A stretch of DNA of 44,167 nucleotides from Azoarcus sp. GTDB taxonomy: Bacteria; Pseudomonadota; Gammaproteobacteria; Burkholderiales; Rhodocyclaceae. Positions 14,011-20,939 of this stretch are shown here, in pieces (positions within the stretch are counted from its first letter, which is position 1; every line of letters starts with the position of its first letter). The DNA lies in assembly GCA_030656215.1 (NCBI GenBank), contig JAUSOD010000085.1:1-44167 (forward strand), written 5' to 3'. The translations under genes and the position numbers were made by a program. The notes beneath the pieces were generated by a model, which did not search any database, had not been told where the DNA came from, and saw nothing but the letters and a program-made list of their open reading frames with translations.

Positions 14011-15048
14011 TTATCGACGATCCGCAGGCGCGCGGGAATGCTGCGCTACGAATACGAGTGGCTGATCCGGCGCGAGTTCCGGTTGCAGGGTGACGTGTTC
14101 GATGCCGAAGCGGGCCGCGAGCAGCTCGCGCTGGCGCTGCAGGATGGCGGGCCACTGCTGCGCGTCGGCGATCACCAGATGCGCGGAAAGCGCCGGATGG
14201 CGCGAATCCAGGCTCCAGATGTGGAGGTCGTGCACCGAGCGCACGCCGGCCACGGCTGCCATCGACTGCCCCACCTCGGGCAGCGACAGATGGTCCGGGA
14301 CACCTTCCATCAGGGTATGCACCACGCGGCGCAGCAGGGCGACGGTGGAGGCCAGGATCAGACCGCAGATCAGCATGGTGAGCAGGGGGTCGATCGTGAC
14401 CCAGCCGGTGAATTGGATCACCAGGCCCGAGGTGAGGGCAGCGATTGACCCAAGAATGTCGCCCATCACGTGCAGCAAGGCTGCCCGGGTGTTGAGATCG
14501 GACTCGCCACGGGTCAGCAGCCAGGCCACCAGCAGGTTGATCCCGAGGCCGGCGAGCGCGACCAGGGTCACCGCCTCGCCGGCAATCTCGCGCGGATTGC
14601 CGAGCCGTACGATGGCCTGCCACAGCAGGGTCGCCACCAGCGCGAGCATCAGCAGGCTGTTGATCAGCGCCGCCAGGCTCTCGACCCGCTTCAAGCCGAA
14701 CGAATGGCGCACACTCGTGGGCATCAGCGCGAGGCGCGCGGCCAGTGCGGCAAGGCCGAGCGCCATCGAATCGGTCACCATGTGGCCGGCGTCGCCAAGC
14801 AGGGCGAGTGAGCCCGACCACCAGCCGGCTATGGCCTCGACCGCGGCAAAGCCCAGCGTCAGACACAGCGCCAGCGGTAGCCAGCGGCTGGCCGAGTGAT
14901 CGTGGTCGTGGCTGCCGTGTCCGTGCGAGTGAGGGTGATCGTGGTCGCCATGGCCGTGATGGTCATGGGCTTGATCGTGGACATGTGCAGGGTGGTCGGG
15001 TGCGGACATAGGGGCACAGGCGGGATGGTCAGAACCTGATGATGCCAT
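14011..15048 (-). CDS. CDF-family divalent cation exporter (CzcD/ZitB-like)
   Basis: The protein is an inner-membrane antiporter exporting Zn/Co/Cd-type cations. In its 345 residues the first ~55 are very rich in His and Asp (DHHGHGDHDHPHSHGHG), which suits a metal-sensing or buffering tail. Six helices follow. Two of them carry the HxxxD metal sites GDAGHMVTDS and HVMGDILGS. A C-terminal CDF dimerisation domain (VRSVHDLHIWSL) ends the protein. ATG 15048 is used; Met14 is an alternative start. It lies 78 bases downstream of cobN on the same strand with a hairpin between them. It could therefore be read through from the cobalamin-regulated operon, which makes cobalt a candidate substrate, by inference. 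Confidence 0.92.
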   Translation of the reverse strand: MASSGSDHPACAPMSAPDHPAHVHDQAHDHHGHGDHDHPHSHGHGSHDHDHSASRWLPLALCLTLGFAAVEAIAGWWSGSLALLGDAGHMVTDSMALGLAALAARLALMPTSVRHSFGLKRVESLAALINSLLMLALVATLLWQAIVRLGNPREIAGEAVTLVALAGLGINLLVAWLLTRGESDLNTRAALLHVMGDILGSIAALTSGLVIQFTGWVTIDPLLTMLICGLILASTVALLRRVVHTLMEGVPDHLSLPEVGQSMAAVAGVRSVHDLHIWSLDSRHPALSAHLVIADAQQWPAILQRQRELLAARFGIEHVTLQPELAPDQPLVFVAQHSRAPADRR

Positions 15049-15126: not shown

Positions 15127-18100
15127 CTATCCGCCGATTCCGATGGGCCGGCGTGGGCCGTGGTGGCGTGCCCACTGCAGCGAGGCGCCGCCACCCGCCA
15201 CCAGCGCCATGAACAGCAAGGCAAGGAGCGCGTTCGGCTCGTGCGGCGAGGGCTGTTCCATCTCCTGGCGCTGAAGCACCACGCCGCGCACTTTCGACGC
15301 TTCGGCCGGTGGCGATTCGGTGGCCGGGGAAGGGGGTGCTGCCTCCTGCGGCTGCGGCTGCGGCAAGTCAGGGGCGGTGAGCGATGCTGCTACCAGTCCA
15401 GTGGACGGGCTGCGTATCGTGCTTGCGGCGGGCGCCAGCTGCTCGCGGACCCATTGCCGGACCGATGGCAGCTCGCGTGCGAGCGGTGCGTTGCGGGTCA
15501 GCTCGTCATACAGCTGCGCCAGTTCGCGGCGGCTTGCCGCATCGGGCGACCAGTGGCCCTGACGTTGCGCCTGCACCAGCCGCTCCAGGGTCTGCGCATA
15601 GGCCTGCGGATGGCTGCGCAGCCATTCGGGGATACCCATCTTGTGCTTGTCCTTGACCAGCACGTCGTGGAATCCCTGCCAGTGATCGGGGCGTACCGTG
15701 TCTTCGACCGTGGCCTGCCAGCCCCAGATGAACTGCACCGCCTTGAGCACCTGCAGCGTGCCCGAATAGCCCTCGGCCTTCTGCGCCTCGATCCAGCCTG
15801 GATGGAGGTAACGCGTCTGCATTTCCGCCGCGATGCTGCGCTGGGCGCTTTCGGTGAACGGCTCGTTGCTGTCCTGCAGCTGGTTGACGAACAGGCGCAG
15901 CGGTTCCGCCTTGCCGGCCGTGCGTGCCGCGGCGGCCAGACCACCGAGATACTGGAAGGGGTCGTCCGAGCTCGCCATCGCATACAGGTGCGAGGTTCGC
16001 GACAGAATGGCGGCGTCGGTGCGGCGCAACTGCGCACCGAGTGCCTGTGCCGCGACCTCGCCCGGTATGTCTTCGAGCGCACTGCCGCCGAGATAGGGCT
16101 GGCTCATGCGCTGCAGGAACATCTGCCCCAGTCTATCGTCGCGGGTACGCAGTTCGTCGTGCTGCACTGCCTCGGAGATGCCGGTGCCGTAGTCTCCGAC
16201 CGCATTGCCGAACACGCGGGCCTGACCAAGCAGCCGGGCTTGTGCTGCCGGTACGCCCTTCTGTGCGAGCTCGGTGGCGACCTCGGTGCTGTTGAGCGCA
16301 ATCGCACCGAGCGGCTCGGCTTCGGTGACGGTGGCCACCGCCTGATCGAGGAGTGCCATCAGCGCAGGAAACTGGTCGCGATAGGAGCCGGTCACGCTGA
16401 GCAGCACGTCGACCCGTGGGCGGCCGAGTTCTTCAGCCGAAATCAGCTCGACCGAGCGTGGCCGGCCAGCGTCGTCCCACACCGGGCGCACGCCGAGCGC
16501 CACCATCGCCTGGGCTTCCATGATGCCCTGGTGCCGGAGGGTTTCGCCGGCCCACAACGATAGCACCATGCGCCGCGGCGGCTGCGCGCCATTGGTCCGG
16601 TGCCAGTCGTCGAGCCAGTTCTTGAATAGCAGCCCGGCGACGTTGTAGGCCTGGCGGGTGGGGAGGCGACTGGGGTCGAGCCCGGTCAGGTTGCGTCCGG
16701 TGGGCAGGCTCTCGGGATTGCGGATCGGGTCGCCACCATATGCGGCGGGGAGGAAACGGCCGTCGAGCGCGTTCAAAAGGCCATCCATCTCGCCTTCGGT
16801 AGCGAGCAGGCGGTCCAGGGTTTGCGCCCGTTCGGCAAGTTCAAGCAGCGCATCGCGGTCGATCTCGCGGCGCGAGGCGCGGTTGGGTACCGCGCTTTCG
16901 GGTTCGGGCGGGCGCAGGTCGAGTTCGCTCGCGGCCTGCGGGTCGCGCAGTGCAAGCTCCAGCCAGCGCGCCGGGCGCGAGTTGATGACGTCCGTGTAAG
17001 CGATCAGGAAAGTCTCGTCGATATCCTCGCCGAGTGCGTCGAGCAGGGGCTTGCGCACGGCTTGCAGGATGGTCTGGCGGCGCAGCGCTTCGTCCGGGGC
17101 CTTGCCGAAAACCGCCAGCCCTTTCGGTTGCGAGCTTTGCGCGAGCTGATCGAGCCACGGGTGCAGGACCTCCATGAACTTCTGCAGGTCGGCGCTGACC
17201 TGTTCGCGGCTCCAGTCGAGATCGCGGTGCAGCTGGTGTTCGACGATCAGTTCCACCAGTTGCTGTTCGAGTGCGCTGCGGGTCGGGCCGAGGTCGGCGA
17301 TCTCCCATTCGTGCATCAGCTGGTGCATCTCGGCCAGCCTGGCCGGGAAACCCGCGGTGGCGAACACCGGGGTGCGGTGACTGACCAGCAACGCCCGGCC
17401 ACGACGCTTGGCGGTCAGGGCCTCGCCAAGGTTGTCCACGATGTAGGGATAGACCACCGGCAGGTCGCCCAGCGGCAACAGCGCGTCGTCGAGCACGTCG
17501 AGTGCGCGCGATTTGCCCGGAGCCCATTCCTGGGTGCCGTGGGTGCCGAAATGGATCAGCGCATCGGCTTGCTGCGCCCACAGATAGACGGCGAGATAGT
17601 GGTGCGACAGCGGTTGCTTGCTGCGATGCATGAAGGGGTTCTGACCCAGGCGCAGGGTCTCCTCGCGCGGCGGTTGGGGCAGCACCGACAGTTTGCCGAT
17701 CTGCAGCCGGGGAATCACGAATACCGGTTTGCCCTGCCATTGCACGACATAGCGGCTGCTGGCCGGTGGGCCCCAGCGGGTTTCGATCCGCTGGCGCACG
17801 GCTGCGGGCAGGGTTTGCCACCAGGCTTCGTAATCCGACAGCGGCAAGGCGTCCGCCTGCTGCAGTTGCAGCATGGTGACGAGGTCGGCGTCGGGGTAAT
17901 AGGCCTTGAGCAGGGGCGGCAGCGCGCTCACCCAGTCGGCTTCGGGCGTGGGTCGGGTGTCGTATCCGGCTGCGCTCAGTGCGCCGGACACCTGTTCCAG
18001 ACTGCGTGGGACGTTGAGGAAGGAGGCACCGAAATTGGTCCCGCCCGGTGGGTAGTTGTACACCATGGCCACCAGCTTCTTGTCTGCCGCAGGGCGCGTG

Positions 18101-19203
18101 CGGAGCGCAAGCAGGCGCCTCGCCTTTGCCACCACGGCGTCGGCCTGGCGTTCGATGAGCTCGGTGTGCCGGCCGCGGTCGGCATGGGCGACCACCATCA
18201 GGGGGTCGATCGCGCCGGCCGCCTCGGGCTGGACGAGGTAGAAGGGGGTGTCGCCGAGCGCCAGCCCGGCGCTGTCCTGTTCCCACGTCGCGGTGTCGCC
18301 CTGGCGGTAGGGCTGGGTGGCCAATACCGGGGTGCCCCAGCGCTCGAACAGGGTCTGCAGCGTGGCCGCCTGCGGGGTGAGCTGGTGGAGCACGATCAGC
18401 TGCGGGTGCGCGCTGCGGGGACCGGCCGCCGGGCCTTGTTCCAGCATGGCGGCAAGACCGGCCGCGTCCACCTGCTGGCCGAATACCGCATAGGCAAACA
18501 GGCCCTGGCTGGCGAAGCGTCGTAGCCAGTCGTCGAGCCAGTCGGTGTTGCCATTGATGAAGTGATAGCGGTGCACCAGTACCGCGATGGCAGGCTGATC
18601 GCTGTAGCGCGGGAGGGTGGCCTGCCACGCGGCCAGGGCACTCGCGTCGTCGAAAAATTCCGCGGCGTCGGGGTGATAGATGCCGCGCGCAGGCCAGGTC
18701 CGCGGGGCTGGCAGGTCTGCCAGGTCACGCTTGTCGATGGTGGCGGATGCGAGCATGAAGGCGTGACGGACGTTGTCCTCGCCCCCTGCTCGCAGGTAGT
18801 CGCCGATGCCTCGTGTCACGCCATCGGCCACGCCGGGCAGTGCTTCGTTCGCGACCCACACCACCCGGCCAGGGTGGTTGGCGCCATGGACATCAAGCAG
18901 CGGACCATAGAGTTTTTCCAGCCGGGTGTATGCGCTTGCATGAGGAACATCGACCCACACCATGTCCGCCCGCTGCAGGGCCTGGGCCATGGTTTCGCGT
19001 TGCTCCCCGGTCTGCGCCGGGGTGTCGCGCAGCGGGTGATCGAGATGGCTTACGCTCCAGCCCTGGGCAGCCCCGAGACGCTCGATCATGGCGCTGCGTG
19101 CGGCGGGGGTGATGTCGGCCGTCACCCACAGCAGCTTGTACGCGAGGGCGTTGCCGTTCGCGCACAGCAGGGTGAGGCACAGCAGCCGGAGTAGCGTCCT
19201 CAT
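15127..19203 (-). CDS. cobN: exported, membrane-anchored CobN/HmuS-like chelatase
   Basis: The product belongs to the CobN/ChlH large chelatase-subunit family; CobN inserts cobalt into hydrogenobyrinate diamide. The 1358 residues carry the family motif HFGTHGTQEWAPGKSRALD near residue 550. Unlike cytoplasmic CobN, it starts with a clear Sec signal (RLLCLTLLC...ALA, residues 1-21) and ends with one transmembrane segment (about 1324-1344) and a basic RHHGPRRP tail. The body is therefore predicted to lie in the periplasm, tethered to the inner membrane. A Pro/Glu-rich linker precedes the anchor. No cobS or cobT ATPase gene is nearby. The ATG overlaps the stop of the DUF2149 gene (ATGA), and the ExbB-like gene is coupled just before. 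This suits an HmuS-like (de)chelatase or metal/corrinoid uptake role powered by proton-motive force. The activity and substrate are inferred. Confidence 0.88.
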   Translation of the reverse strand: MRTLLRLLCLTLLCANGNALAYKLLWVTADITPAARSAMIERLGAAQGWSVSHLDHPLRDTPAQTGEQRETMAQALQRADMVWVDVPHASAYTRLEKLYGPLLDVHGANHPGRVVWVANEALPGVADGVTRGIGDYLRAGGEDNVRHAFMLASATIDKRDLADLPAPRTWPARGIYHPDAAEFFDDASALAAWQATLPRYSDQPAIAVLVHRYHFINGNTDWLDDWLRRFASQGLFAYAVFGQQVDAAGLAAMLEQGPAAGPRSAHPQLIVLHQLTPQAATLQTLFERWGTPVLATQPYRQGDTATWEQDSAGLALGDTPFYLVQPEAAGAIDPLMVVAHADRGRHTELIERQADAVVAKARRLLALRTRPAADKKLVAMVYNYPPGGTNFGASFLNVPRSLEQVSGALSAAGYDTRPTPEADWVSALPPLLKAYYPDADLVTMLQLQQADALPLSDYEAWWQTLPAAVRQRIETRWGPPASSRYVVQWQGKPVFVIPRLQIGKLSVLPQPPREETLRLGQNPFMHRSKQPLSHHYLAVYLWAQQADALIHFGTHGTQEWAPGKSRALDVLDDALLPLGDLPVVYPYIVDNLGEALTAKRRGRALLVSHRTPVFATAGFPARLAEMHQLMHEWEIADLGPTRSALEQQLVELIVEHQLHRDLDWSREQVSADLQKFMEVLHPWLDQLAQSSQPKGLAVFGKAPDEALRRQTILQAVRKPLLDALGEDIDETFLIAYTDVINSRPARWLELALRDPQAASELDLRPPEPESAVPNRASRREIDRDALLELAERAQTLDRLLATEGEMDGLLNALDGRFLPAAYGGDPIRNPESLPTGRNLTGLDPSRLPTRQAYNVAGLLFKNWLDDWHRTNGAQPPRRMVLSLWAGETLRHQGIMEAQAMVALGVRPVWDDAGRPRSVELISAEELGRPRVDVLLSVTGSYRDQFPALMALLDQAVATVTEAEPLGAIALNSTEVATELAQKGVPAAQARLLGQARVFGNAVGDYGTGISEAVQHDELRTRDDRLGQMFLQRMSQPYLGGSALEDIPGEVAAQALGAQLRRTDAAILSRTSHLYAMASSDDPFQYLGGLAAAARTAGKAEPLRLFVNQLQDSNEPFTESAQRSIAAEMQTRYLHPGWIEAQKAEGYSGTLQVLKAVQFIWGWQATVEDTVRPDHWQGFHDVLVKDKHKMGIPEWLRSHPQAYAQTLERLVQAQRQGHWSPDAASRRELAQLYDELTRNAPLARELPSVRQWVREQLAPAASTIRSPSTGLVAASLTAPDLPQPQPQEAAPPSPATESPPAEASKVRGVVLQRQEMEQPSPHEPNALLALLFMALVAGGGASLQWARHHGPRRPIGIGG

Positions 19204-19562
19204 CGGCCAACTCCCGCGGTGGGGCTGTCGTCCTGCGCCTTGTCCTCCGGGACATAGATGATGCTGCCGTCGCGCAGACGGTATGCGACGCCGGCGCGCA
19301 CCCCTTCTCCTTCGCTGACGCCACCGCTGCCCTTGTAGCGGACTTCGCGTCCCTGCTCGGTGACCACGATCTCCATGTCTGGCTCGCCGGCCTTGTGCAC
19401 CAGCGTGGGTTCGGGAGCCTGTGCTGCCGTCGGGCGGGTGCTCGCCGCCACCGCCGCGAGCAGGGCAACCACCAGTACGAGGAACACGTCGACCAGATTG
19501 ACCGCCGACAGCATCGGATCTTCGTCGTCTTCGTCGAGCACCTTCAGGTGCTTGAGGCTCAC
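19200..19562 (-). CDS. DUF2149 protein, ExbD-like small membrane protein
   Basis: The 120-residue protein has an acidic N-terminus (LDEDDEDPMLSAVNL), one transmembrane helix at about residues 20-42, and a C-terminal domain ending in YRLRDGSIIYVPE, all typical of DUF2149. The helix begins N-L-V-D25-V, a membrane Asp placed as in ExbD/TolR. It could form a proton path with the adjacent ExbB-like protein. The GTG start overlaps the ExbB-like stop (GTGA), and its own stop overlaps the cobN ATG. This very tight coupling implies the three proteins form one complex. Confidence 0.85.
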   Translation of the reverse strand: MSLKHLKVLDEDDEDPMLSAVNLVDVFLVLVVALLAAVAASTRPTAAQAPEPTLVHKAGEPDMEIVVTEQGREVRYKGSGGVSEGEGVRAGVAYRLRDGSIIYVPEDKAQDDSPTAGVGR

Positions 19563-20023
19563 GCCTGCACCCCACGCGCCTTGCGGATGGAGAGCAATTC
19601 GGCCAGCAGCCAGCGCCGCCGCACCGAGTAGACCACCAGCCCGACCGCGGCGGCTGCCAACGCCAGCACCACCCCGGCGAAGGCGCCACTGAACACCGCC
19701 AGCGCTTCATGGCCCTGGCCGGTGGCCACGCTTTGCAGGGCCGGCCCGAGCGGAATCATGGTCGCGATCAGCCCGAGCATTGGCGTCACCCGGCTGAGCA
19801 GGCGCAGTGGTTCGATCTGGCGCAGTACCCGCATCTCGAGTTCGTCCATCGAGTACGCGGCATCGCAGGGCAGGCTGGCGTAGTCAGGCAGGCGCCAGCG
19901 CTGCCAAGCCTCCATCAGGGTCATGCCGCCGACCCACAAGGCGTAGACGAAGGCCAGCGCCACGAGGGCGAGGACGGGCCACAGCAGTGCCTGGGCAATC
20001 TGCAGAAAACTTGTTTCGATCAT
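19559..20023 (-). CDS. MotA/TolQ/ExbB-family proton channel protein
   Basis: The 154-residue product has an N-terminal helix (about residues 11-34), a cytoplasmic segment, and two further helices. The second helix carries the family signature TPMLGLIATMIPLGPALQ at 80-97. It is shorter than ExbB/TolQ (about 220-240). ATG 20023 is chosen because it places the first helix at the N-terminus; upstream frame is non-coding. It probably pairs with the DUF2149 protein to drive the exported CobN-like protein. No tonB or TonB-dependent receptor gene is present in the window. Confidence 0.88.
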   Translation of the reverse strand: MIETSFLQIAQALLWPVLALVALAFVYALWVGGMTLMEAWQRWRLPDYASLPCDAAYSMDELEMRVLRQIEPLRLLSRVTPMLGLIATMIPLGPALQSVATGQGHEALAVFSGAFAGVVLALAAAAVGLVVYSVRRRWLLAELLSIRKARGVQA

Positions 20024-20046
20024 GGTCCGGTTTCTCGCGTTGGAGG

Positions 20047-20583
20047 TCAGAAGGTGATGGCGGGAAATTTCGGCCTGACCGTCAGCGTCTTGCTGCCTGC
20101 CGGAGCGGTCAGCTTGACCCTCAACTGCTTGAGTCCGGGGTGATTGCGGAAGGCCGTGAAGTAGACCGACCGGAGCGCTGAAGCCTTGTCGCATTCGAAT
20201 CTGAACGAATGAACGATATTGGCGATGTCTGCGCTTGGGTCTGCGGTTTCAAGGTCCGGGGAAACGTTCGCCCCGATCGGCGTGCAGACCGCCTCGGGCG
20301 CCGGCTCGATGAACTTGTCGAGTTGGCCAAGGCGGATCTTCAGCGCGTCGAGTGTCTGTTGCTGGGATGGGGTCTTGGGTGGGTAGTCGAACCCGAGCAG
20401 GCTCTCGAGCGGGAAGTTGAATTCTCCCTTCATGCCGTTGGCGTCGACGACGAGGGTCAGGGTTGCGTGTCCATGGGTGTGGCTGCCATGGCTGAAGGCA
20501 GGGCTGGGGAAGGTGCTTGCGGTGATGAGGGCTGCGACGCAGGCAAGCGCTGCCAGAGGCGAGCGGCCGGATTGGATGGTCAT
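20047..20583 (-). CDS. DUF2796 (ZrgA-like) exported metal-related protein
   Basis: The 178-residue protein has a Sec signal peptide ending near PSPAFS, and the mature protein begins with a His-rich HGSHTHGHATLTLVVD. The rest (FPLESLLGFDYPPKTPSQQQ, then a C-terminal beta-rich part) fits DUF2796. The Vibrio zinc-uptake component ZrgA belongs to this family. It is the first gene after the cobalamin riboswitch and lies 23 bases before the ExbB-like gene. It could be a periplasmic metal binder feeding the chelatase. The ATG has no strong ribosome site, consistent with riboswitch control of translation. A GTG ten codons upstream is an alternative start. Confidence 0.85.
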   Translation of the reverse strand: MTIQSGRSPLAALACVAALITASTFPSPAFSHGSHTHGHATLTLVVDANGMKGEFNFPLESLLGFDYPPKTPSQQQTLDALKIRLGQLDKFIEPAPEAVCTPIGANVSPDLETADPSADIANIVHSFRFECDKASALRSVYFTAFRNHPGLKQLRVKLTAPAGSKTLTVRPKFPAITF

Positions 20584-20607
20584 GATGATGAACTCGAAAT
20601 TCGCCCT

Positions 20608-20627
20608 CACTGTCTTCCCCGACAGTG
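20608..20627 (-). promoter_or_regulatory. leader hairpin close to the DUF2796 start
   Basis: Perfect 7-bp arms (cactgtc / gacagtg) flank a 6-base loop about 25 bases before the start codon. It may take part in translational control together with the riboswitch. Confidence 0.45.
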
Positions 20628-20634
20628 CGTGGGC

Positions 20635-20674
20635 ACAAGGTTGCCGTTCGCGAGGCGAACGGCAACGACCTTGT
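20635..20674 (-). promoter_or_regulatory. probable riboswitch expression-platform hairpin
   Basis: A perfect 12-bp stem (20640-20651 with 20655-20666, loop 3) is extended by 5 more pairs (20635-20639 with 20670-20674) across a 3-base bulge. The extension uses bases 20673-20674, which also belong to the closing P1 helix of the riboswitch. The two structures are therefore mutually exclusive, as expected for a ligand-controlled switch. No U tract follows, so termination is unlikely and translational control is favoured. Confidence 0.6.
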
Positions 20675-20905
20675 TGGCCGGTATCCGGGCTGACGGCACA
20701 CCTTTCCATCGCCTTCCCGGGCGGGTCTGAACGATCCCGATTCCAGTGGCTGAATGATGGAAGTGACCCGAACATCATGGGTCTGGCCGCTTACCGTTGC
20801 GGGGGCAGCGCAGGTTATCCCCCCGACGGCCCTTTGTGGCCGGGGGACGGGACTCCTGCTTCCCGTTGAACTGTGCTCCGGGAAAGGAGACACGAGCACC
20901 AACGG
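20668..20905 (-). ncRNA. cobalamin (AdoCbl) riboswitch
   Basis: On the minus strand the leader contains the B12 box AGCCCGGATACCGGCC (20676-20691), an upstream GCCACTG element (about 20740), and the GCTGCCCCCGCAACGGTAAG core (about 20790-20811). These occur in the order and spacing of the cobalamin riboswitch. P1 can close through GTTGG (20899-20903) and CCAAC (20673-20677). It lies directly before the DUF2796-ExbB-DUF2149-cobN operon and should repress it when cobalamin is abundant. Confidence 0.95.
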
Positions 20906-20910
20906 CCGCG

Positions 20911-20939
20911 ATGTTAGCGCAAGCTGCAGCGCCTGTCAG
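20911..20939 (-). promoter_or_regulatory. promoter of the cobalamin-regulated operon
   Basis: CTGACA (20934-20939) and TAACAT (20911-20916) on the minus strand are separated by exactly 17 bases. Transcription would start near 20904, right at the 5' end of the riboswitch. The agreement of position with the RNA boundary supports the call. The preceding gene on this strand ends at 21030. Confidence 0.6.

Follow-up and report, generated by a model that had tools for sequence, protein, structure and literature searches.

The locus raises the question of what a CobN protein does when it carries export signals, stands under a cobalamin riboswitch and is encoded with its own ExbB/ExbD-like pair. The window, meaning the whole 44,167-nt stretch analysed, is contig JAUSOD010000085.1 of Azoarcus sp., and the operon region spans positions 15127-20939, with all features on the minus strand. 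Our tentative answer is a periplasmic, corrinoid-handling class I chelatase that most likely inserts cobalt, with an ExbB/ExbD-type unit possibly replacing the AAA+ CobST proteins.

The Azoarcus operon and its products

The gene order proposed in the initial annotation was confirmed by Rfam and profile matches, the ExbB-like protein falling below its Pfam cut-off, with ExbB proteins as the best, low-significance matches of its modelled fold:

20659..20918, minus strand: cobalamin riboswitch aptamer (Rfam RF00174, 71 bits)
20047..20583, minus strand: ZrgA-family (DUF2796) exported protein, 178 aa (Pfam ZrgA, 98.5 bits)
19559..20023, minus strand: ExbB-like membrane protein, 154 aa, three long helices (MotA_ExbB, 19.6 bits, and structure model)
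19200..19562, minus strand: DUF2149, ExbD-like (Pfam DUF2149, 76.6 bits)
15127..19203, minus strand: CobN, exported and membrane-anchored, class I chelatase H/N subunit, 1358 aa (Pfam and NCBIfam)

The covariance-model search matched the full RF00174 model (cut-off 31.5 bits, E 1.1e-15). The aptamer lies 75 nt upstream of the first gene, and a 7-bp hairpin (CACTGTC...GACAGTG) without a U-run can be read between it and the start codon. The operon would be off when cobalamin is plentiful. Reading the sequence bore out the overlaps claimed for the last three genes: GTGA (19562-19559) is common to the ExbB TGA and the DUF2149 GTG, and ATGA (19203-19200) to the DUF2149 TGA and the CobN ATG. The longest ORF (from 19710, 1527 aa) was rejected as the CobN gene, since its first 169 residues cross DUF2149 into ExbB. 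A cation-efflux gene lies 3' of CobN in the window and was found in none of the other loci examined.

The ZrgA-family protein exceeds the Pfam ZrgA cut-off of 27.4 bits and scores far below the cut-off of the NCBIfam ZrgA equivalog (46.4 vs 185). Its signal-like start leads into HGSHTHGH, and the motif HG.HTHGH is present in all four proteins compared, including this one, which we regard as a candidate periplasmic metal-binding partner.

Threonines in TM2 and TM3 of ExbB-type channels are pore residues. In the ExbB-like proteins of the module, TM2 Thr93 is kept in 38/38. The Thr that canonical ExbB has in TM3 is kept in 13/13 gamma-clade proteins and is Val in 5/5 window-clade proteins and 16 of the 19 others. 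The MotA_ExbB score of the Azoarcus protein is under the cut-off (22.9), and that of a gamma-clade orthologue from locus L038 is over it (38.6 bits). The nine best Foldseek matches of the three-helix model (pLDDT 84.6) were ExbB proteins (best E 0.06, probability 1.00; none below 0.001). DUF2149 (cut-off 27.1 bits) has one TM helix with an Asp (N..D) and then a Gly-rich part; this residue, the membrane Asp25 singled out earlier, does not vary across the 38 aligned proteins (38/38). The Pfam ExbD profile scored below its cut-off (14.4 vs 25.4 bits, E 0.04), and the DUF2149 structure model, from a five-row alignment, was too poor for a fold search (mean pLDDT 53.7). The suggestion of an ExbB/ExbD-like pair is supported.

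CobN matched Pfam CobN-Mg_chel as a full-length domain (851.8 bits) and the NCBIfam CobN equivalog NF004644 (1434.7 bits, cut-off 1248), and by sequence it belongs to the class I chelatase CobN/ChlH/HmuS superfamily. Hydropathy revealed a signal-like start ending in ALA and a C-terminal hydrophobic helix with a basic tail, supporting an exported, C-terminally anchored protein as first proposed, and not a cytosolic one. The other exported CobNs share the C-terminal helix and basic tail and, where the start is present, the signal-like start, except in L043 and L082 (such starts were placed in 11 of the 13 gamma-clade rows examined). The cytosolic CobN and BchH rows compared have neither a signal-like start nor a C-terminal anchor.

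Recurrence of the module and cobalamin pathways

CobN, ExbB and DUF2149 constitute a recurrent module, found in 38 sets when the gene content of loci was taken from profile matches. CobN and ExbB were present in 19 of the 20 class-level DUF2149 loci fetched, and ExbB/DUF2149 in none of five loci with cytosolic CobN or BchH. A riboswitch lies 5' of 16 of the 38 sets, in a count where the upstream side of L031 and L085 is incomplete, and also precedes L082, a locus with ZrgA and a CobN with a frameshifted start, without ExbB and DUF2149. The full order riboswitch-ZrgA-ExbB-DUF2149-CobN recurs in Azonexus hydrophilus DSM 23864 (L081), a named and sequenced strain, and in an HGW betaproteobacterium (L080), and the operon arrangement is therefore not due to chance; their CobNs are 63-64% identical to that of Azoarcus in the best segment.

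No RF00174-type riboswitch was found in 17 other loci searched, 14 of which have a TonB receptor nearby. Riboswitch-led loci are scattered over three parts of the CobN tree, which needs at least three riboswitch changes (corrected labels: 17 with, 19 without), gain and loss being indistinguishable; L098 and L100 carry riboswitches and sit in the riboswitch-free group in the residue counts and tree labels. The tree comprises rows with at least 900 aligned residues (L030, L031, L040 and L083 are among those that fell below), without L055, L057, L061 and L062-L077, which are partial or duplicate, and without L054, L056 and L058, the same ORFs as L091-L093. Zur control of the riboswitch-free relatives was considered and rejected: using a Zur consensus, two sites with at most two mismatches were found in 20 loci (L098 and L100, both with riboswitches, included) against about 4.4 from shuffles. 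The same scan gave no Zur-type site in 17 B12-type stretches.

Riboswitch-led loci often adjoin BtuB-like, CobO, CbiA, CbiB and CobQ genes; together with the riboswitch itself, these neighbours support the proposed link to corrinoids. CobW, which chaperones cobalt in the cytosol, adjoins cytosolic CobN in two of three loci and exported CobN in none.

The Azoarcus genome encodes a single CobN, and the absence of CobS noted at the locus extends genome-wide. CbiC/CobH was likewise not found in a genome-wide search, and the organism is therefore unable to build the corrin ring. Its one CbiX-family protein (85.1 bits) represents another chelatase, perhaps the sirohaem one. CbiC is missing from 11 of the 15 genomes with a riboswitch-led locus (Azoarcus and 10 of 14 others), for which cobalt scavenging, as initially suggested, is unsuited if meant for B12 synthesis; cobalt supply for ring synthesis was set aside as the main Azoarcus role. 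In three genomes (G089, G236 and G121), the module stands at the head of a corrin cluster that includes CobG, with CobG over the cut-off. The exported CobN is the only one in these genomes, and searches of them retrieved no CobS over the cut-off, no CbiX and no CbiK. The clusters also contain CbiD, named for the cobalt-early route, and an ABC-2 ATPase/permease pair.

Comparison with known CobN-like systems

Exported CobN with ExbB and DUF2149 has already been published, for HmuS and for Pseudomonas aeruginosa PA1922-PA1925, as have riboswitch-led Hmu-like operons in Bacteroidota. HmuS is described as an exported CobN-like haem dechelatase with membrane anchors and with ExbB and DUF2149 partners (PMC12583661, PMC13227078; the DUF2149 label is from PMC10434189). 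The recombinant protein is reported there to convert haem alone (PMC12583661), and HmuU/HmuV are assigned to energising the TonB-dependent receptor (PMC12583661, PMC10100974). The kinship with haem operons that the initial annotation proposed is supported by partner genes of the same kinds and by the tree, in which exported CobNs and HmuS form one clade apart from cytosolic CobN and BchH (SH-aLRT 98). Among solved structures, HmuS 9d26 has the highest bit score (299.7), barely above Mycobacterium tuberculosis CobN 7c6o (295.8). HmuS His538 corresponds to His555 of the Azoarcus CobN, with His aligned in all rows of the three groups, and the metal-site His is kept in 14/14 and 20/20 exported rows. 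HmuS has features of its own, namely Met79/His254, His1209, a Met-rich insertion, HmuY/HmuR and haem dechelation. The Azoarcus system differs in its B12 riboswitch, in the corrinoid context of its relatives, in carrying Asp1081, as CobN does, where HmuS has His1209, and in having no room for the Met-rich domain IV insertion (135 residues between aligned blocks vs 282 in HmuS). This Asp occurs in 14/14 riboswitch-linked rows and 3/3 cytosolic CobN rows. CobNST (PMC7689651, PMC10206600) shares the CobN chain and the Asp but is driven by AAA+ CobS/CobT and ATP, is served by the GTPase CobW and, in the CobN rows compared, shows no export signal.

BtuS proteins are CobN-like and predicted to be periplasmic, with salvage and not synthesis proposed for them (Rodionov 2003, as cited in PMC6460266), and cobalamin-riboswitch Hmu-like operons are noted in Bacteroides, with B. 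fragilis as an example (PMC10100974). The resemblance to the Azoarcus operon lies in the CobN-like, predicted periplasmic protein and in the riboswitch-led operons. They differ in belonging to Bacteroidota, and the available parts of these sources mention no ZrgA, no motor for CobN and no role as sole chelatase in a CobG-type pathway. PA1922-PA1925, which encode a TonB-dependent receptor, a CobN-like protein, an ExbD/proton-channel protein and DUF2149, are given as part of the Zur regulon, responding to zinc starvation (PMC4542158, PMC8531726, PMC9431628), and unlike the Azoarcus operon they include the receptor. Their induction may explain raised cellular cobalt, as the authors of PMC4542158 suggest. 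The cobN cluster of Trichlorobacter (Geobacter) lovleyi pSZ77, which has no CobS/CobT (PMC3403914), shares CobN, ExbB, DUF2149, TonB-dependent receptors, riboswitches and cobalamin genes with the systems analysed here; it differs in its DUF2162 and exbB-exbD-tonB set, in having no ZrgA and in occupying another branch of the tree.

A possible periplasmic corrinoid chelatase

In the mechanism that we infer, CobN would be an inner-membrane-anchored class I chelatase acting on corrinoids in the periplasm, where the ExbB/DUF2149 pair would replace the ATP-driven CobS/CobT ring and pass proton-motive force to CobN via its C-terminal helix. As the likeliest reaction, cobalt would be put into a corrin that lacks it or carries the wrong metal and that has been imported by a BtuB-type receptor; the His-rich ZrgA-like protein would be the source of the cobalt. 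Several points count against insertion or against a corrinoid chelatase altogether. HmuS acts in the removing direction and, as recombinant protein, converts haem alone; the CobN-type Asp is present in most riboswitch-free loci too; CbiA precedes CobNST in the known pathway and is cytosolic; L082 has riboswitch, ZrgA and CobN without the ExbB/DUF2149 pair; and the Azoarcus genome has another chelatase in its CbiX-family protein. Ring-less genomes would depend on a presumed external supply of cobalt-free corrin, and in the three CobG producers, whose clusters also contain CbiD, the corrin would have to exit and re-enter the cytoplasm. It is doubtful, though conceivable, that late cobalt insertion has moved outside the cytoplasm as a whole, with the exported CobN and its proton motor replacing CobST, producers exporting metal-free corrin, as the ABC-2 pair in their clusters might allow, and retrieving the cobalt form, and salvagers such as Azoarcus metallating scavenged cobalt-free corrins.

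Of the proton-driven CobN first proposed, the ExbB/ExbD-like pair stands; the coupling to CobN is conjectural, given that HmuU/HmuV are in print as energising a receptor and that the TM3 Thr is Val. A motor serving an outer-membrane receptor through TonB, with CobN motor-free, is a minority prospect that deserves some weight: HmuU/HmuV are so drawn in PMC12583661 and PMC10100974, and the riboswitch-free loci mostly have a TonB receptor nearby. The Azoarcus operon, however, contains neither a receptor nor tonB, in all 38 sets the pair has CobN as its constant companion, which in Azoarcus overlaps DUF2149, and Trichlorobacter has a separate exbB-exbD-tonB set 3' of the module.

As for the function of CobN, it is rather unlikely that the protein binds incoming periplasmic corrinoid and uses the ExbB/DUF2149 drive to collect it from BtuB or pass it on to BtuCD, leaving the metal unchanged. 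This would fit the BtuB-like receptor that 7 of the 12 gamma-clade loci counted (without the incomplete L040) encode 5' of CobN, the BtuC/BtuD-like genes in L045, L046 and L078, the frequent loss of CbiC and the receptors and exbB-exbD-tonB set around the Trichlorobacter module. It sits poorly with the conserved metal-site His and would leave the CobG-type producers without a recognised chelatase; moreover, the Azoarcus operon is without a receptor, and its genome has a separate riboswitch-led set (L006) with two receptors and BtuC/BtuD-like genes. Cobalt transporters are often targets of B12 riboswitches, which speaks for cobalt acquisition, that is, the periplasmic stripping of cobalt from chelates or tetrapyrroles to feed the cell, as HmuS does with haem iron. 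The ZrgA-family gene at the head of the operon also agrees with it, as do the HmuS precedent (PMC12583661) and the cobalt increase suggested for P. aeruginosa (PMC4542158). We nevertheless judge it improbable: where CbiC is absent there is no ring synthesis to serve, none of the four genes encodes a permease, and the cation-efflux gene is peculiar to the Azoarcus window among the loci examined. Least probable is an HmuS-type haem or porphyrin dechelatase under incidental B12 control; its structural proximity and partner genes recall HmuS, against which stand the replacement of His1209, the missing room for the insertion, flanking genes that, where examined, belong to other families, and the B12 control and corrinoid neighbours of its relatives.

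Should the motor be coupled to CobN as proposed, a chelatase that moved to the ATP-free periplasm has traded its ATP-driven AAA+ ring for a unit of the ExbB type driven by protons, and the ExbB/ExbD family has a new job. The chelatase reading would, if true, also name the missing cobaltochelatase of those CobG-type B12 producers whose genomes yielded no CobS, and would explain how salvagers that cannot build the ring might use cobalt-free corrins. The proposal is directly testable in Azonexus hydrophilus DSM 23864, which has the same operon.

Recurrence of the CobN-ExbB-DUF2149 module and export of CobN

The window operon is preceded by a cobalamin riboswitch. Its last three genes had been described as overlapping, and on sequence reading the stop and start codons do overlap at both the ExbB-DUF2149 and DUF2149-CobN junctions. 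The features are as follows:

20918-20659, minus strand: cobalamin riboswitch, upstream of the four-gene operon
First of four genes, minus strand: ZrgA-family exported protein
Second of four genes, minus strand: ExbB-like protein, 154 aa
Third of four genes, minus strand: DUF2149 protein
Last of four genes, minus strand: CobN, 1358 aa

The neighbouring genes examined 3' of CobN (cation efflux, HDOD and benzoate transporter) and 5' of the riboswitch (one GGDEF/EAL and one periplasmic binding protein) belong to other families. The cation-efflux gene (window 14011-15048) is a CDF member whose start is very rich in His; it comes after CobN in the same orientation, and no equivalent was found at the other loci searched.

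Of 369 genomes of the class, 21 encode DUF2149 at an E-value of 0.001 or lower, 20 of these scoring over the cut-off. Among the 20 class-level loci other than that of the window, 19 encode CobN and ExbB beside DUF2149; the one locus lacking the trio, L047, has a DUF2149 below the cut-off. At the level of the order, 32 of 150 genomes encode CobN relatives, and nine of the 14 CobN regions sampled encode an exported CobN with ExbB and DUF2149, while five encode cytosolic proteins (three CobN-type and two BchH-type) without either partner. Including named relatives and five plasmid loci, the totals are 38 DUF2149 and 38 ExbB rows, the ExbB row of the plasmid locus L100 being that of its TonB system, with the module ExbB identified separately. 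The co-occurrence of CobN, ExbB and DUF2149, for which the initial annotation proposed a search, is thus recurrent (38 sets). An exception is L082 (9292-13953), in which riboswitch and ZrgA lead directly into a frameshifted CobN, with no ExbB or DUF2149. The genome of L082 has additional CobN genes. Incomplete loci L079 and L083 were kept outside this test.

The Sec signal and C-terminal membrane anchor attributed to the window CobN were both recovered: the signal ends in ALA, and a hydrophobic helix is followed by a basic tail. Exported relatives share the helix (best 19-residue mean hydropathy of 1.10 to 2.68, against -0.61 to 0.43 for cytosolic rows) and the basic tail. Hydropathy also placed signal-like starts in the exported relatives, rows truncated by contig ends being left out, with the exceptions of L043 and the frameshifted L082. 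A short V.G..[LM] motif precedes the C-terminal helix (window 15274-15291, 54 residues before the CobN end) in 24 of 25 non-gamma exported rows versus none of 12 in the gamma clade of exported CobNs; two of seven cytosolic rows have a chance occurrence close to their end. This motif may be a docking site for the motor pair.

The membrane Asp reported for DUF2149 is a single transmembrane residue kept in 38/38 proteins, and P86, G89, L90, T93 and L127 are kept in all 38 ExbB rows. A fold search with the window ExbB-like model ranked ExbB first (E 0.06, with no match under 0.001). The two proteins are likely a pair of the ExbB/ExbD type. The canonical Thr of ExbB TM3 is kept in all 13 gamma-clade proteins, and its position is Val in 5/5 proteins of the window's clade and 16/19 other ExbB-like proteins. 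Proton flow in the window's version of the pair is less certain. The constancy of the trio, the overlapping genes, the single anchoring helix of CobN and an operon without receptor or TonB suggest that the pair would drive CobN. No proton motor for an exported CobN was found in the accessible parts of the literature searched, in which most subscription papers were beyond reach.

Chelatase candidates in salvager and producer genomes

The window's own genome encodes a single CobN and, as had been noted for the CobNST partner, no CobS; no CbiC/CobH was found by genome search either, and one CbiX-family protein scored 85.1 bits. It carries three cobalamin riboswitches including that of the window. 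One (L005) precedes a ribonucleotide reductase alpha subunit. The other (L006) precedes a TonB receptor and then a BtuB-type receptor (493.9 bits, below the cut-off of 599.7), followed by BtuC-like, BtuD-like, CobO and SUMT genes, with CobU, CobT (DMB phosphoribosyltransferase) and CobS (ribazoletransferase) encoded divergently. Two GATase_3 proteins (198.6 and 102.2 bits) were assigned to CobQ and CbiA by score alone. Considering this inventory, in an assembly stated to be 100% complete, the organism is most likely a corrinoid salvager, able to start from roughly the level of cobyrinate, rather than a ring maker.

Fifteen riboswitch-locus genomes were compared: the window's own, those of L078, L080, L081 and L082, and G089, G072, G236, G202, G140, G121, G155, G288, G392 and G481. 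CbiC is present in four (the genome of L078, G089, G236 and G121) and absent in 11, completeness figures being lacking for the genomes of L078, L080, L081 and L082. In G089, G236 and G121, the module is part of a gene run on one strand that also contains CobO, CbiA, SUMT, CbiD, an ABC-2 pair and CobG. CobI, CobJ and precorrin-8X methylmutase each exceed a cut-off in L038 and L041, CbiC of G121 lies just beyond the edge of L044, and BluB was found in L041 and L044. CobG is diagnostic of the aerobic B12 route, and its scores (247.7, 323 and 269 bits in G089, G236 and G121) all exceed the cut-off of 234.8. According to PMC7689651 and PMC10206600, this route inserts cobalt late via CobNST. The three producer clusters also contain CbiD, whose name refers to the cobalt-early route and which has been proposed as a substitute for CobF (PMC3621897).

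Each of these three genomes encodes one CobN, the exported one. No CobS exceeds the cut-off in G089, G236 or G121 (best 91.3, 34.8 and 33.3 versus 558.55 bits), and neither CbiX nor CbiK was found by genome search. Therefore, the exported module is the only recognised chelatase candidate in the three genomes within the families searched, and exported CobN paired with an ExbB-type unit would be the apparent sole chelatase of CobG-type producers. No such role was found in the same partly accessible literature. CobS exceeds the cut-off in one of 32 genomes examined (G449), with G143 close at 491.6 bits. In a small sample, two of the three cytosolic CobN genes (L091 and L092) have CobW as a neighbour, whereas no exported CobN does; the sole other CobW match lies ~8 kb away on the opposite strand in L036.

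The ABC-2 permease and ABC ATPase genes sit between CobG and CbiD in the corrin clusters of the three genomes:

L038:3689-5382
L041:3789-5488
L044:1406-3096

Their families were checked in L038, and the permease is in no other locus of those compared. The pair is possibly a corrin exporter.

Active site, riboswitch distribution and relation to HmuS

The window system is real, conserved and corrinoid-linked, a variant of HmuS/BtuS-type systems. According to PMC10100974, a cobalamin riboswitch is present in some Hmu-like operons, which perhaps take part in cobalamin metabolism; HmuS is treated in PMC12583661 and PMC13227078, the former also covering the superfamily, and related literature includes Rodionov 2003 (as cited in PMC6460266), PMC10434189, PMC4542158, PMC8531726, PMC9431628, PMC3403914, PMC2667541 and PMC8620254. 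The window CobN matches HmuS and M. tuberculosis CobN equally well, within 4 bits. HmuS contains a Met-rich insertion for which the window CobN has no room. HmuS His538 corresponds to window His555 and is His throughout the 14, 20 and seven rows of three groups. HmuS His1209 corresponds to window Asp1081, this position being Asp in 14/14 rows labelled riboswitch-linked in this comparison and 3/3 cytosolic CobN rows, and Asn or Thr in BchH. Since Asp also occurs in 16 of the 20 rows that the comparison labelled non-riboswitch, a set including the riboswitch-led L098 and L100, it is not by itself a marker of B12 use.

In a quick tree built from 45 CobN rows, exported CobNs and HmuS split from cytosolic CobN and BchH (SH-aLRT 98), the placement of HmuS, a partial, long-branch row, being unsure. 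A riboswitch lies upstream of 16 of the 38 sets, directly or behind other same-strand genes, and also of L082:

Riboswitch-led sets: window, L078, L080, L081, L098
Riboswitch-led sets: L038, L039, L041-L046, L096, L097
Riboswitch-led set: L100

These loci fall into three separate regions of the tree, so that the riboswitch label must have changed at least three times, gain and loss being indistinguishable. The proposed corrinoid link held: a BtuB-like receptor, CobO, CbiA, CbiB and CobQ adjoin in the gamma clade and L078, in varying order.

Seventeen loci (L028-L035, L084-L090, L101 and L102; the upstream side is missing in L031 and L085) showed no cobalamin riboswitch in the available stretch, and 14 of them contain a TonB receptor. 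None is upstream in L036, L037, the second Azonexus set or the partial locus L040. L036 contains CbiZ, and L037 a MetH-like gene, by sequence reading only. At L037:10347-12676, immediately after the CobN-ExbB-DUF2149 set, a TPP riboswitch lies ahead of a TonB receptor. In L099 (8776-20734, Azospirillum brasilense Sp 7 plasmid p4), CobN-ExbB-DUF2149 is followed by a cobalamin riboswitch, downstream of DUF2149, and then by an ABC transporter, a TonB receptor and NikR. In Azonexus hydrophilus, a second exported-CobN system (L081:13914-23131), with two TonB receptors, ExbB and DUF2149, is convergent with the adjoining riboswitch-led one and falls in a different branch of the CobN tree.
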